This document shows positions 40,614-46,034 of a stretch of DNA of 64,000 nucleotides, one piece after another. The DNA lies in NCBI GenBank assembly GCA_036382775.1, contig DASVHD010000021.1, forward strand, positions 62,001 to 126,000. Reading direction: 5' to 3'. Every line of letters begins with the position of its first letter. Position 1 is the first letter of the stretch. A program made the translations under genes and the position numbers. Source of the DNA: a bacterium. Lineage in GTDB: Bacteria > Hydrothermota > Tepidihabitantia > SM23-42 > JAOAFX01. The notes beneath the pieces are model-generated. The model had not been told where the DNA came from, ran no database searches, and saw only the letters and a list, made by a program, of their open reading frames with translations.

Positions 40614-43600
40614 ATGACGTCAATAACTGAATATTTCGAAAGGAACATAAGCTTAAGTGCCAAGGTGTCAGCCTATGCTGACTCGCTGAACCAGAACAGC
40701 CTGGGGTTGAATATCCTGATCCAACAGCTGGAACTGCTCTTCGTGCTGTTCCAGAGGAGCGAGACCCTGGCGCGCATAATCCGTGATTATTCGAAGAATT
40801 TCAAAAAGGACATCAGCGGTTTTAAACAGAATTTTGTCCTGCAGGAAAATTTTGTAAAGAACTCCAGCGCTCAGTTGCTGAGCATCAGCATCTTGTTGAA
40901 GACGATCGATGAAATGCTTATGTTGGTCCAGGAAAACGCCAAGCAGTTCGTTACGTCATCGCGGTCGCTGGCGCACCTGGCGAAGAATGCGGAGATAAAA
41001 TCCTACCAGGCGCAGGCCGAAGGCCGGGGCCTGGCGGTGATCGCCAGAGAATCGCTGTCGTTGGCCAACCGCGCTCAGGCACCGTTTGAGGATTTCGAGA
41101 TGATGCTGCGCGTTTTGAAAGAAACAGCGCAGCCCGTGATCGAACAGCTGGGAACGATCATCGAGATCTCGCAGCGGTCGACTTCATTGCTCACCAGGGT
41201 TATGGATTCGCTGAGAATAATCGACGACACGGTAACCTCCCTGCAAAAGATCATTACCGGTATCGAACAGCAGAACGCCCTGTACAAAGATTTGAAAAAC
41301 AACGTATCGAACGAGGTCGGCCAGCTGAAGGATCAGCTGGCGACGTCGCAGAACACGATCGATGACATGTCCGTGACGTGCGCGGAGATCAATTCGCTTG
41401 CCCAGATCCTGCACACGCTCAGCACGATCATAGAAACAGACGGACCTTCGGATGCTAACCAGCATATCGTCAGCCAGTTCAACCACGCGCTCCAGGAGAA
41501 TACCCGGCTGCTGGACCGGCTGCCGATGGGGCGGAAGCCGCCGCTGTTTTTACACCGCATTTATGCCAATATTCAGGGGATCGTGGCACAGATCGAGGAG
41601 TTGAACCGTTCGACCCGAGAACTGGCACTGTTCGGCGATAACCTCTATAATCAAATGAACGAGATCGTCGAACTGGAAGGCCAGCTCGATACTTTTCATG
41701 ATGACGCTAAACGGATGGTCACGGACCTTAATCAACTGGGAACGGCGCTGGATCGTGATCTGGTAAGGATCGAGGACGTGGTCATGGCCGCAGGCAAGAT
41801 ATTTTCAAAGATCAAGACGCTCTCGGTGTTTGCCCGGATCGAAGAAAGCAGGTGCATGGACAAGCGGGCGGTAATATCGCCGGTGGTCCAGGAATTCACG
41901 GATCTGGCCCTCAATACGGAAAAACCGTTCATGAGCATGGGAGTAAAACTGGCGCAGTTAAAAAAGGACGTCCACCGCCTGAGCCGCGAAGCATTGAGCG
42001 AGATCTACGTAAAACCGCCGACACCTGATTACAGCAAGATCAAGATCTTCCTCGATGATATGGTCAGGGTCCTGCAGGAAAAGAGCAAGGCTGCCGCTGA
42101 GATCATGAAAATAACCCAGGACCTGACCAACCGCAATGCATCGATGAGAGAGCTCGGTGAGCTTTACGAAGAAGCATTGAACACGATCACTCAGCTGCGG
42201 ACGCCGCTCGAGCATCTGGCACGCCGGAAACCAGCATCCACACCCGCGGTATTAAAGAGCAAGATCGTTATCGACGCGGAGCTTACGGCCGAGCCGGTCA
42301 CGGTCAATCCGGACCTCGTGACCGATATGAACTCGCATAATCTGGTCGGCAACGTTTACTCCGGTCTTTTCCAGTTCGGCGAAGGCGTTGATGTCATACC
42401 CGGGTTGTGCCAGGAATACACGGTCTCGCGCGACGGCACCGAATATGTGTTCCGTCTTAAAGAAGGACTCAAGTATCACAACGGTGCTCATGTCTCGATC
42501 GATGATGTGAGGGATGGATTTTTACGGGCATTGCAGGGGCCGAACTTTAACCTGTTTGAGATGATCGCCGGCGCCGGCGAGTATATTTCGACCAAGCAAA
42601 AAGATCGGCTGCACATCCGGATCATCGATAATCACAACCTCCAGGTGAAGATCGAGTATCCGTACCTTCCTTTTCTGGCGAACCTGGCAACCCATGGCGC
42701 TGATCCGTACATACCCGGCGAGCACCCCTTGAGCACGGGACCGTTCAAGATCGCGGCCTGGGAACGGGGAAAATGCATCATTCTTGAAGCCAATGAACAT
42801 TATTTTGAAGGGAGGCCGACCATTGATACGGTCAACTTCCATATCCAGGAGACTGACGAGGACAGCTATGACCGCTTTATGGGAGGGAATCTTGCGGTCT
42901 ATCGCCCGGCCGCAACTTCGCTGCTAAAACTGCGTCGCAAGTGTCCTGAAACTATTTTTACGATCCCCGAACTCTCGATCCAGTTTTTGTGCATGAACTG
43001 CACGAAATCACCGTTCAATAACAGTCTTATCCGCAAAGCGGTCGCCCACGCTATCGATACAAAAAGTCTGGTCAAGAATTTCCTGGAAAACACCGCTTTG
43101 CCGGCAAAAGGGATCTTTCCTCCTTCCATGAGGGTCCACAACCCGCGCCGGGTTGGATATCAGTTCAATCCGCAGAAGAGCCGTGATATGCTGGCAGGGG
43201 CCGGGTTCAAACATGGTCTACCTGATGTATATCAGCTGGATCTTGATGAATCGCCCCAGGTCGTCAAACGCGGTGAATTTATCAGAGACCATCTTGAGAA
43301 AGTGGGTATCCGGATCGAATTGAACCCGCTGTCCTGGCGAACACTGCTGGACAAGACCTACAAAGGACATTCGATCCTATCGTTGCAGGGATGGGTAAGC
43401 GATAACGGGGATCCTGATAATTTCATGTATCCATTATTCCATTCAAGTTCCTTCGGCAATTCGGGTAATACGTTTTTCTTCAATCATCCGGGTGTTGATA
43501 GTAGTATCGTCGAGGGGCGCAAAATACGCAATATCAACCAAAGAATTCTGCATTACCAGCAGCTTGAACAGAAGATCCTTGATGAAATGCCGGGCGTGGT

Positions 43601-43721
43601 TCTCTATCATTCGCTGGAGAATGTTGCGATCCAAAGAAAGATCATCGGATTTAAACCCCATCCGTTGGGGTTGCTCAGATTCAAGTTCGTTTATCCCCAC
43701 GAAACGGGGGCAAAGGTATGA
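40614..43721 (+). CDS. Cytoplasmic fusion of MCP-like helical domain and family-5 solute-binding domain
   Basis: 1035 aa, no signal peptide and no membrane helix. Residues 1 to about 540 are almost all helix. A segment at about 119-160 ('LAKNAEIKSYQAQAEGRGLA', 'VIARESLSLANRAQ') copies the hairpin tip of chemoreceptors. Residues about 548-1035 are a family-5 (peptide/nickel type) solute-binding domain: 'VNPDLVTDMNSHNLVGNVY', 'FRLKEGLKYHNGA', 'STGPFKIAAWERG', 'NNSLIRKAVAHAID'. Such domains are normally exported. SgrR is a known case of one kept in the cytoplasm as a sensor. Here a cytoplasmic ligand sensor coupled to a receptor-like rod is inferred. It follows the tRNA gene by 35 nt. Confidence 0.82.
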   Translation: MTSITEYFERNISLSAKVSAYADSLNQNSLGLNILIQQLELLFVLFQRSETLARIIRDYSKNFKKDISGFKQNFVLQENFVKNSSAQLLSISILLKTIDEMLMLVQENAKQFVTSSRSLAHLAKNAEIKSYQAQAEGRGLAVIARESLSLANRAQAPFEDFEMMLRVLKETAQPVIEQLGTIIEISQRSTSLLTRVMDSLRIIDDTVTSLQKIITGIEQQNALYKDLKNNVSNEVGQLKDQLATSQNTIDDMSVTCAEINSLAQILHTLSTIIETDGPSDANQHIVSQFNHALQENTRLLDRLPMGRKPPLFLHRIYANIQGIVAQIEELNRSTRELALFGDNLYNQMNEIVELEGQLDTFHDDAKRMVTDLNQLGTALDRDLVRIEDVVMAAGKIFSKIKTLSVFARIEESRCMDKRAVISPVVQEFTDLALNTEKPFMSMGVKLAQLKKDVHRLSREALSEIYVKPPTPDYSKIKIFLDDMVRVLQEKSKAAAEIMKITQDLTNRNASMRELGELYEEALNTITQLRTPLEHLARRKPASTPAVLKSKIVIDAELTAEPVTVNPDLVTDMNSHNLVGNVYSGLFQFGEGVDVIPGLCQEYTVSRDGTEYVFRLKEGLKYHNGAHVSIDDVRDGFLRALQGPNFNLFEMIAGAGEYISTKQKDRLHIRIIDNHNLQVKIEYPYLPFLANLATHGADPYIPGEHPLSTGPFKIAAWERGKCIILEANEHYFEGRPTIDTVNFHIQETDEDSYDRFMGGNLAVYRPAATSLLKLRRKCPETIFTIPELSIQFLCMNCTKSPFNNSLIRKAVAHAIDTKSLVKNFLENTALPAKGIFPPSMRVHNPRRVGYQFNPQKSRDMLAGAGFKHGLPDVYQLDLDESPQVVKRGEFIRDHLEKVGIRIELNPLSWRTLLDKTYKGHSILSLQGWVSDNGDPDNFMYPLFHSSSFGNSGNTFFFNHPGVDSSIVEGRKIRNINQRILHYQQLEQKILDEMPGVVLYHSLENVAIQRKIIGFKPHPLGLLRFKFVYPHETGAKV

Positions 43722-43835: not shown

Positions 43836-46034
43836 ATGGCTAAAAAAGATGAAAAAGATGATATAGATATTCTGGCGGACCTTGAGGAAAAGCTCGGTGA
43901 ACTTGAAAAGGTGGAAAAGGACATTGCCGCTAAGAATAAGGAATTGAAGACCACGGAGGACAAGCTGGCAGAGGTTTATTCTTCCCAGATGGAAGCGTCA
44001 TCAGAGGTCGAGGATCTTAAAAAAACTCTGCAGGAATTGCGGAAAGACGAGAAAACCATGCGGGATTCGGTCAAAACCATGGAAAAGGACGCCCAGCGCG
44101 CTGAAACATCGCAGAAAGAATACAGCAAATTGTCCACTGACAGTGAAAAACTTTCGTCCAAGGTAAAAGAACTCAAAACCGAGCATGATAAGTTGATGGA
44201 CGAAAAGGGCCGGTTTGACAGCAAACTGGAGGAAGCGCGCGAAAAATACCGGGATCTTTCGAAAAACCTCAATACCCTGGAATCCGATTATAATAAAAAG
44301 CATAAAGAATACGCGGAACTGGAAAAAAATCACAACGAAATAAAGAGCCGGACCGAGGAGCTCAAGAGCGAGTATCAAAACATTGAGCAGACCCTTCGAA
44401 CGGCGCTGGCGGACCTGCGGGCGACCGAGAAAGACCTCAAGATCATGAATGAGGAGAGGAATACGCTGACCAAGGAACTCAGCACGGCCCGCAAGTCGTT
44501 TGAAAAAGAAGATTCTAAATACCAGAAACTTTCGGGCGAAGTCACCGCGCTGGCCAACAGGAAAGAGGAATTGGAAAAGGAGATCGTTAGCCTGAGGGAA
44601 GAGGAGCCGGAGTTGGCCGCGCGCGTCAAGGAATTAAAGGATGACCTTATCGAGCAGACCGAATCGGTAGAGTCGCTGCAGAACAAGATCAAGGGGTTGA
44701 CGAAAGAAGAGGAGCGTCTTCATAAAGAGAACGAAGAATTCACGAAACTAAAGAACGAATACGACAAGACCAAGCAGGAGCTGAAGAAATTGAAGGAAGA
44801 AGAATCGGATCTGGTGTCCCAGATATCGAACTACCAGCTGGAGCAGACGACGCTTGAAGCATCCATAAAAGATATGGATGATAAGTATAAGGACGCCAAG
44901 AAGAAAGAATCCGACCTGCAGAAGGAGAGCACTAAAGGCGCCAAGGAGCTGGAAACTCTGACCGGCGAGATCGCGGTTTTGAAAAAGGACCAGGAAGCGC
45001 TGACGCCAAAGGTCAGCGAGCTTAAGGCGATGGAAAGAGATCTGCGAAAGATCGAACCCGAGTACAAGAAACTGGCGGCTGAGCACGAGACTCGCAAGAA
45101 GGAAGCGACCGAACTCGGCAGCTCGATCGAGCTGGCGAAGAAAAAAATAAGCGAATTGAAACCAGAGGTGGAAAAGCTCGAGGAAATGAGCAAAGAGAGC
45201 AAGGCGGCCAAAGCCGAGCTTGAAAAGGCCAGCAAGGAACTGAAGGAAGCGAAGGAAAAGCTTGTTGAATACAGTGATGAATACAAGAAAATGAAAGAAG
45301 AACTGCCGGCCATGAAGAAAGAATACGGCGAGCTGCAGGAAGCCCTCGAAGAAAGTGAAAAAGTCAAACAACTGCTGGATACACGGAAGAAAGAAATGTC
45401 CTTGACCGAAGGCAAACTGAAGGATCGCAGTAACGAGGTCGAGGAATTGGAAGAGAAACTGGAGCTTTTGAAGAAAGAGGAAGAAAAGGCCGCTGAAAAT
45501 TTGAATAAAGAGACCAGGGAGCTCCTGGCCGAGCGGGACGGCTATCAGAAGGAGATCAATAAGCTCACCGAGCAGAAAAGAACGCTCGAAGAAAAGATGG
45601 GCGATCTGAAGATCAAAACTTCAGAGTTCGAAGGCAAGGTGGAGAAGGCGAAAGCCGTCGACGCGAACATGCTATCCAAGATCGACCAGCGGCGAGCGGA
45701 ATTGATCGAAGTCGACAACGAGATCGAGGAAAAACGCAAACAAATAGCCCAGATGCTAACGGTCGAGCAGGACAAACTGGAACGCATGCAAAAGGAATCC
45801 CAGGAACTGGAAGCCAAGAGAAAAGAAGCTTCTGTCGTTATTTTGAAAGCCGACGATTTCAAGAGCTCGGTGTCGAAACTGATGGTTCAGAAAGAAAGCC
45901 TGGACAAGGAAGTCCATGACAAAAAGGCGGAGTTGGAAAAGATCAAGATCTTCATCGCCCGTCTTAAAGAGGCGCAAGCGTCACCACAGAAAGAAACGAA
46001 AGACAAGGACAAGAAACAGCCGATATCATTCTGA
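43836..46034 (+). CDS. Long coiled-coil protein
   Basis: 732 aa, nearly all charged heptad repeats (Lys/Glu/Leu-rich) from about residue 10 to 710, without signal peptide, membrane helix or ATPase head. It resembles the arm of SMC-type proteins only in composition. A few Gly/Pro residues (for example 'EEPEL', 'ALTPKV') interrupt the rod. It could be a cytoskeletal or scaffold filament. It lies after the MCP-like fusion gene but has its own promoter. The function cannot be named from sequence. Confidence 0.82.
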   Translation: MAKKDEKDDIDILADLEEKLGELEKVEKDIAAKNKELKTTEDKLAEVYSSQMEASSEVEDLKKTLQELRKDEKTMRDSVKTMEKDAQRAETSQKEYSKLSTDSEKLSSKVKELKTEHDKLMDEKGRFDSKLEEAREKYRDLSKNLNTLESDYNKKHKEYAELEKNHNEIKSRTEELKSEYQNIEQTLRTALADLRATEKDLKIMNEERNTLTKELSTARKSFEKEDSKYQKLSGEVTALANRKEELEKEIVSLREEEPELAARVKELKDDLIEQTESVESLQNKIKGLTKEEERLHKENEEFTKLKNEYDKTKQELKKLKEEESDLVSQISNYQLEQTTLEASIKDMDDKYKDAKKKESDLQKESTKGAKELETLTGEIAVLKKDQEALTPKVSELKAMERDLRKIEPEYKKLAAEHETRKKEATELGSSIELAKKKISELKPEVEKLEEMSKESKAAKAELEKASKELKEAKEKLVEYSDEYKKMKEELPAMKKEYGELQEALEESEKVKQLLDTRKKEMSLTEGKLKDRSNEVEELEEKLELLKKEEEKAAENLNKETRELLAERDGYQKEINKLTEQKRTLEEKMGDLKIKTSEFEGKVEKAKAVDANMLSKIDQRRAELIEVDNEIEEKRKQIAQMLTVEQDKLERMQKESQELEAKRKEASVVILKADDFKSSVSKLMVQKESLDKEVHDKKAELEKIKIFIARLKEAQASPQKETKDKDKKQPISF

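Follow-up and report, generated by a model that had tools for sequence, protein, structure and literature searches.

A family-5 solute-binding domain joined to two chemoreceptor-like hairpins in a bacterial protein without export signals: a candidate cytoplasmic sensor

Introduction

Most SBP_bac_5 (family-5 solute-binding) proteins are extracytoplasmic. The locus described here raises the question of what such a domain does when it is carried by a protein that has no recognisable export signal and begins with a long helical rod resembling a chemoreceptor. The gene lies in a window (the whole stretch of DNA that was analysed) of 64,000 nucleotides, belonging to a genome of 3.06 Mb in 51 contigs that is 95.6% complete (G000). 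In the original prediction, made from the DNA alone, the product was read as a cytoplasmic sensor of peptides or of another small ligand. The present analysis favours this reading too, because no export signal was found, the DppA/OppA-type fold is intact, the rod is homologous to MCPs, as can be seen through its paralogues, and one paralogue stands in a che operon. In the following, group A comprises the window copy and its relatives, group B the paralogue in the che operon and its relatives, and group C the fusions from outside the class of the window's genome (n = 15 used: L141, L142 and L147-L159).

The fusion gene and its domain make-up

The features on which this section rests are the following:

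40614..43721, plus strand: group A fusion gene, 1035 aa, tandem chemoreceptor-like hairpins and SBP_bac_5, without signal peptide or transmembrane helix
40506..40578, plus strand: tRNA-Met(CAT), found by ARAGORN, directly upstream of the fusion gene, as in relatives
42255..43703, plus strand: solute-binding domain of family 5, DppA/GbpA/OppA-like, residues 548-1030 (Pfam E 8.8e-69; Foldseek)

The reading frame (40614-43721, plus strand, 1035 aa) is intact, and its product, which has no export signal, consists of a helical part at the N-terminus followed by a family-5 solute-binding domain at the C-terminus. In the Pfam scan, SBP_bac_5 (PF00496) was matched at residues 594-948 with an E value of 8.8e-69, and no N-terminal HTH was found. 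The AlphaFold2 model of the window protein (pLDDT 86.7, pTM 0.69), built like that of group B with a family alignment, predicts long helices up to residue 536 and then the SBP fold, which begins at residue 552, so that sequence and fold agree on the domain and the proposed fusion of a binding domain to a helical rod is borne out. The MCP signalling domain (PF00015) remains sub-threshold in this protein, with 23.8 bits over residues 83-251 in the Pfam scan and 28.1 bits in a genome-wide search, the cut-off being 34.6 in both cases.

The claim that the protein has neither signal peptide nor membrane helix also stands. Export and lipoprotein signals were looked for by a hydropathy scan and inspection of the N-terminus, not by SignalP, and none was found; the highest Kyte-Doolittle mean over 19 residues is 1.45, whereas two membrane MCPs of the same genome reach 2.78 and 2.45. 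The tRNA-Met gene ends 35 bases before the fusion gene, and the frame is not extended upstream because in-frame stops separate this tRNA from the ATG. An upstream start or a missed signal was rejected on the basis of these stops, the tRNA-Met and the hydropathy scan.

Two chemoreceptor-like hairpins in one chain

The helical part holds two modules, each with its own tip:

40614..41441, plus strand: hairpin module 1, residues 1-276 in the AlphaFold2 model (helices 2-132, 134-158, 161-219, 221-276)
41553..42221, plus strand: hairpin module 2, residues 314-536 in the model (helices 314-413, 418-458, 474-527, 529-536)
40983..41063, plus strand: tip of module 1, residues 124-150, which keeps N125, G137, R138, G139 and E146
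41820..41906, plus strand: tip of module 2, residues 403-431, which keeps L403, E410, R413 and E427

The rod thus consists of two degenerate chemoreceptor hairpins in tandem; its chemoreceptor-like character had been recognised correctly, while the second hairpin, with a tip of its own at about residues 403-431, had been overlooked. In the alignment of groups A and B, two stretches resemble the MCP tip, and a single MCP tip was ruled out for this reason. The AlphaFold2 models break the helices at the aligned tips (at residues 133 and 414-417 for A and at 146 and 431 for B), as would be predicted for antiparallel helical hairpins with the turn at a conserved tip. The model of group B (pLDDT 85.6, pTM 0.61) likewise has two hairpins, with helices 5-145/147-288 and 333-430/432-570.

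Homology of both modules to MCPs emerges from profile comparisons. With hhalign, the modules of A match those of B at 98.5% (module 1) and 97.0% (module 2), and the canonical MCPs of the window's genome at 95.7 and 84.1%, respectively; against the same canonical MCPs, the two modules of B reach 98.1 and 98.1% and those of C 99.1 and 98.8%. Module 1 matches module 2 at 93.8% within B and 97.8% within C, and at 5.1% within A. The matching is module-specific, since module 2 of A finds module 2 of B at 97.0 and module 1 of B at 4.6, and the doubling therefore predates the split between A and B. Chance similarity among coiled coils was ruled out by control alignments with an unrelated coiled-coil family, that of the 732-aa gene downstream (see below), whose profiles gave at most 21.7% over 21 comparisons. 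Searched by sequence against the PDB, the rod of B has MCPs as its top matches (2ch7, E 1.8e-6). In a VIA-align search with the model of B, SBP domains fill the list and no MCP is among the matches listed, and the result therefore says little on the rod. In the Pfam search paralogue B has two MCPsignal stretches over the cut-off, with 67.1 bits, and a member of group C (L152) is also above it with 107.4 bits.

Two tandem chemoreceptor hairpins in one chain make the protein a natural single-chain receptor, and a soluble one, with two signalling modules and no transmembrane segment.

Division of the tip residues between the modules

Tip residues are compared here in the numbering of Tsr. Module 1 was compared in 44 rows (14 of A, 16 of B and 14 of C; one A row lacks this part and that of L142 was counted separately), in which the equivalents of N381, G393 and G395 are kept 44 times out of 44, that of R388 three times and that of E385 never; in the window protein the E385 and R388 positions hold K129 and Q132. 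Module 2 (45 rows) has the equivalent of E385 in 45/45 and of R388 in 39/45, the N381 position being Tyr or Phe throughout (0/45; F406 replaces the Asn in the window protein) and the G-x-G turn being lost. L403 and E410 are the sole invariant rod columns in alignment A1. Group A itself is constrained at these places, with the equivalents of N125, G137 and G139 present in 14/14 rows and that of E410 in 15/15.

As judged from these alignments, what the two hairpins retain of the canonical tip is complementary, the Asn and the turn being found in hairpin 1 and the Glu/Arg trimer lock in hairpin 2. In ordinary receptors the dimer has one subunit at the axis of the trimer and one that is turned towards CheA/CheW, according to the relevant sections of one study (PMC4692393), and the way the tip residues divide suggests that module 2 is the trimer-axis half and module 1 the other half. 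At the sequence level the inner and outer roles are not cleanly partitioned: F396, a trimer-stacking residue in the model described in the pertinent part of PMC8144572, from which the equivalences of E385, R388 and F396 were also taken, has its equivalent in 29/30 rows of B and C for module 1 and in only 1/30 for module 2; in module 1 of group A this position is L in 14/14 rows. It is conceivable, though doubtful, that the inner/outer asymmetry of a receptor dimer has been hard-wired into one gene. The chain would then form an intrachain pseudo-dimer, with hairpin 2 as the trimer-axis lock and hairpin 1 as the turn facing CheA/CheW; each half would be dedicated to one of two functions that ordinary receptors divide between identical subunits, and a cytosolic peptide-binding input would steer pili by the internal peptide pool. 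Because its two halves differ, the fusion could help to tell tip residues that act at the trimer axis from those that act on CheA/CheW, a distinction masked in receptors with identical subunits.

A probable sister receptor in a che operon

In the window's own genome, the group B gene (L111, 7146-10292, 1048 aa) is the first in an operon with the order B-CheW-CheY-CheA-CheC-TPR-TPR/Robl_LC7-Robl_LC7. The CheA of this operon has Hpt, dimerisation, ATPase and CheW domains, the last gene encodes a small Roadblock protein and the preceding TPR protein carries a Roadblock/LC7 domain. CheW adjoins B in 17/17 genomes (in L126 it is masked by an antisense frame in the ORF list and was counted from the CheW domain search), and CheA belongs to the cluster in 14 of 16 retrieved B neighbourhoods, the contigs of the other two (L123 and L016) ending before that place. 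A genome-wide search found four CheW domains, just one of them within a CheA, and the operon of B thus holds the sole CheA-like kinase among the CheW matches of this genome. CheR, CheD and CheB form a separate cluster (L160).

The original prediction also stated that no che genes are nearby. This is correct for the immediate neighbours of the fusion gene (ORF list and Pfam), and the group A loci are without che linkage; as a statement of isolation it fails, CheA, CheW, CheY, CheC, CheR, CheB and CheD all being present elsewhere in the genome. The B and C fusions with a che operon have the domain order and the two tips of the window copy. Unlike the window copy, B and the scanned members of C score above the MCP cut-off; also unlike it, B and most of C adjoin CheA. 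By its sequence, the B copy is the better preserved of the two.

Group A and its coiled-coil partner

The gene that follows the fusion is a second constant feature of group A:

43836..46034, plus strand: 732-aa coiled-coil gene, next after the fusion and conserved partner of group A

The ORF list confirms it as the next gene, as had been noted, and it has generic coiled-coil matches only (Pfam, NCBIfam). A homologue lies directly after the fusion in 12/12 loci with downstream DNA (15 group A loci were fetched), at a distance of 7-20 nt in the nine relatives for which the gap was computed and of 114 nt in the window. On the other side, tRNA-Met precedes the fusion in 14/14 of the scanned group A loci that hold the upstream region.

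In a phylogeny built on the SBP part from 45 fusions and 11 ordinary SBPs chosen from the contig scan described below (56 rows, one too-short A row having been dropped), A forms one clade (SH-aLRT 100) and B another (99). The two are sister clades (93) and stand next to the remaining fusions, of which C_142 has a long branch. A is thus an old duplicate. As far as the fusions in this tree go, group A is confined to the window's order, and G027, from another family of the window's class, has B alone.

Distribution of the fusion

With the window protein as query, long matches over rod and SBP were found in 17 of 61 related genomes (G000-G004, G008, G013, G015-G018 and G022-G027), with identities to the window protein of 37-47% for group A and about 26-32% for group B. 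CheW is present in all 17 genomes with the fusion, against 5 of the 44 without it (Fisher p 4.9e-11, not corrected for kinship). With B as query, 58 of 147 genomes of the phylum gave a match at 1e-30, and in about 45/147 the match spans the rod, 17 in the window's class and 28 outside it. G087, which has a 1035-aa frame matched mainly over the SBP, is not among the 45. Of the 13 neighbourhoods examined outside the class (L147-L159), 10 contain CheA, L148 has CheW alone and L147 and L158 have no che gene; not all of the 13 gave matches to CheW and CheY.

A search of 390 relatives reaching beyond the phylum added three genomes with rod and SBP, G275 (L141), G252 (L142) and G388 (L143). The fusion adjoins a PilB-type ATPase in L142 and L143, the ATPase having been identified in L142 only, and the L142 fusion has no Pfam MCP match. 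In L147, L158, L141, L142 and L143 the stretch fetched has the fusion and no che gene. A contig scan of a named collection returned one fusion record (L031), from candidate division WOR-3 bacterium RBG_13_43_14, together with 79 loci in which the match covers the SBP part; among the long frames listed for L031-L110 there was no further rod fusion. Two SBP-permease fusions (L145, L146) and one SBP with a non-matching extension (L144) were left out of the counts. The architecture thus recurs within the phylum, for which one named record gives candidate division WOR-3, and is rare outside it, and an assembly chimera was ruled out, the same fusion being seen in many genomes.

The solute-binding domain and its putative ligand

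Foldseek places the SBP part of the window model with GbpA (TMt 0.86) and OppA (0.87), and the model of B has a Z of about 43 to AapF, DppA, GbpA and OppA, which are tied. One codon deserves separate mention:

43401..43403, plus strand: codon of D930, which aligns with D436 of the DppA precursor

D436 of DppA presumably holds the amine of the peptide. Its equivalent is Asp in 43 of 46 fusions (two gaps, one G). The residue aligned with R383 of DppA is Glu in the window protein, so that plain dipeptide binding is not implied; the title of PDB entry 8z1z gives R383 and D436 as mutated. Since the D436 equivalent is kept and that of R383 is Glu, the ligand is inferred to have a free amine and need not be a dipeptide. 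Fold and pocket Asp are common to the window protein and to the periplasmic binding proteins DppA, GbpA and OppA, from which it differs in lacking a signal peptide, in having no permease gene among its immediate neighbours and in being fused to a rod.

Adaptation and possible output

Methylation was assessed by a motif scan of the first 650 residues of the fusions, with the CheR-type consensus. The window protein has no such site, any site at all was found in 4/46 fusions, and two canonical MCPs have four and three; the absence of the consensus makes ordinary adaptation unlikely.

No flagellin match was found in the window's genome, and the PilB/PilT family has eight. A Roadblock gene lies in this genome beside a GTPase that Pfam assigns to Arf/Ras and that we take to be MglA-like. 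In Myxococcus, the Frz chemosensory system acts on MglA/MglB, according to the part of PMC3441718 concerned with it. By analogy, and from gene content, it is plausible that the che operon is coupled to pili, perhaps via Roadblock/MglA.

A proposed mechanism and its alternatives

For group B, a soluble single-chain receptor with the SBP domain as input and CheA as output is considered likely, with good confidence. The corresponding statement for the window copy, namely a soluble single-chain sensor of the chemoreceptor type with the same input and output, is held to be moderately probable, and was rated lower on account of the copy's degenerate tips and the lack of che genes beside it. In this mechanism, the two tandem MCP-like hairpins of one chain would stand in for the pair of subunits in a receptor dimer, and the family-5 domain, at the base of the rod and opposite the tips, would be the input. 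Its ligand would be cytosolic, would carry a free amine and would most likely be a peptide, either imported or released by proteolysis; by closing the binding domain it would alter the packing of the rod. The tips would report to the CheA/CheW encoded beside the sister receptor of group B, CheA would phosphorylate CheY, and the output would most likely control type IV pili, in their direction or their activity, perhaps via Roadblock/MglA proteins, as with Frz in Myxococcus. The window copy would be a duplicated and more degenerate second receptor without a kinase of its own, working with the coiled-coil protein encoded behind it. Several observations count against this reading: the window protein is under the MCP cut-off, its module 2 matches canonical MCPs at 84.1% and its modules match each other at 5.1%, and its tips have lost residues that are kept in B. 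The lack of che linkage in group A, the Glu at the R383 position, the missing methylation consensus and the fusions without a che gene in L147, L158, L141, L142 and L143 also count against it.

The main rival, which we regard as unlikely, is that group A no longer couples to CheA and serves as a decoy or scaffold, co-assembling with B or with the 732-aa coiled coil and setting array size, array position or ligand buffering, with B alone signalling. The tips of A, more degenerate than those of B and C, would fit this role, as would the sub-threshold MCP score, the lack of a che gene beside A and the coiled-coil partner in 12/12 loci; the constraint on the key tip residues of A (N125, G137 and G139 in 14/14, E410 in 15/15) and the conserved Asp of the SBP pocket speak against it.

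It is very improbable that the helical part is a stalk for oligomerisation only and that the protein, having nothing to do with chemosensory signalling, scavenges or buffers peptides in the cytosol. SBP domains do bind without signalling in transport and no che gene directly flanks the window copy, but both modules are homologous to MCP hairpins via B and C, with negative coiled-coil controls, and the operon of B and the co-occurrence of fusion and CheW point to chemosensory signalling. Export by an unrecognised route, which would make the protein an ordinary binding protein with an unusual anchor and is suggested by the extracytoplasmic location of most SBP_bac_5 proteins, is the least credible explanation, since the top 19-residue hydropathy mean among the 31 A and B proteins is 1.68 against 2.45 and 2.78 in the membrane controls, this peak sits in an extension made by the ORF caller ahead of the likely start (L016), and B stands in a che operon.

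Relation to known systems

The fusion favoured here as a cytoplasmic sensor is a variant of soluble single-chain receptors already known, and its new part is the family-5 binding domain on the rod, a combination for which no paper was found in the open-licence literature. Natural single-chain receptors are called unexplored in the relevant sections of PMC4692393, where an engineered single-chain Tsr is also described as supporting chemotactic signalling. The soluble single-chain receptor of R. centenum has, like the window protein, two MCP signalling hairpins in one chain; the portion of the literature describing it mentions neither a solute-binding domain nor a phylum-wide operon, and the halves of the window fusion are unequal. 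The present fusions provide a large natural family of such receptors with a defined input domain and operon. They suggest that a little-studied phylum senses its internal peptide pool and may thereby control surface movement.

Compared with FrzCD, the fusion has a family-5 binding domain and a double hairpin, and its link to MglA is putative. The two systems have in common a membrane-free receptor, CheA and a chemosensory link to MglA/MglB, as far as the Frz system is portrayed in the passages concerned (PMC3441718). Cytoplasmic receptor arrays (TlpT and others) are likewise built of soluble receptors, whose inputs are presumed to lie opposite the baseplate, as proposed here; in the pertinent sections of that work (PMC3964821) the receptors of the TlpT type are dimers of ordinary chains, whereas here a double hairpin is formed by one chain and the formation of arrays is putative. 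For an SBP_bac5 domain in a cytoplasmic regulator, a precedent exists in the transcription factors SgrR/DsvR, to judge from the sections of PMC13060122 that treat them. Their output part is a helix-turn-helix and that of the window protein a chemoreceptor rod; the SgrR-type NCBIfam match of the window protein is marginal (13.9 bits).

Other chemotaxis genes of the source genome

In the genome from which the window comes, a membrane MCP (locus L112, 7831-11355, contig C8) is flanked by CheW genes on either side and accompanied by an AAA ATPase. No CheA gene adjoins it; if the protein signals, its kinase would have to be that of the operon opened by the sister fusion (group B), and thus shared. 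Across the phylum, the che operon often ends in long TPR proteins and Roadblock/LC7 proteins (L111, 13201-17260, and equivalent positions). CheB, CheD and CheR are clustered on contig C6 of the source genome with TPR proteins and a protein with a DnaA-type ATPase domain (L160, 7497-14470).

Related and unusual fusions

Outside the phylum, two genomes encode a 1488-aa protein combining a rod-like part with SBP_bac_5 (L142, 296-6450; L143, 7887-14041), its gene immediately preceded by that of a PilB-type ATPase (identified in L142). Although this protein has no Pfam MCP match, its two hairpin tips align at their Asn and Glu. A further unusual type of SBP fusion joins SBP_bac_5 to a DppB-type permease domain in a single chain (L145, 2868-5573, 901 aa; L146, 2238-4844, 868 aa). 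Finally, a group B rod fragment (G025:C18:6384-7589), from a genome 53% complete, contains two in-frame TGA codons, perhaps reflecting an assembly or sequencing problem.
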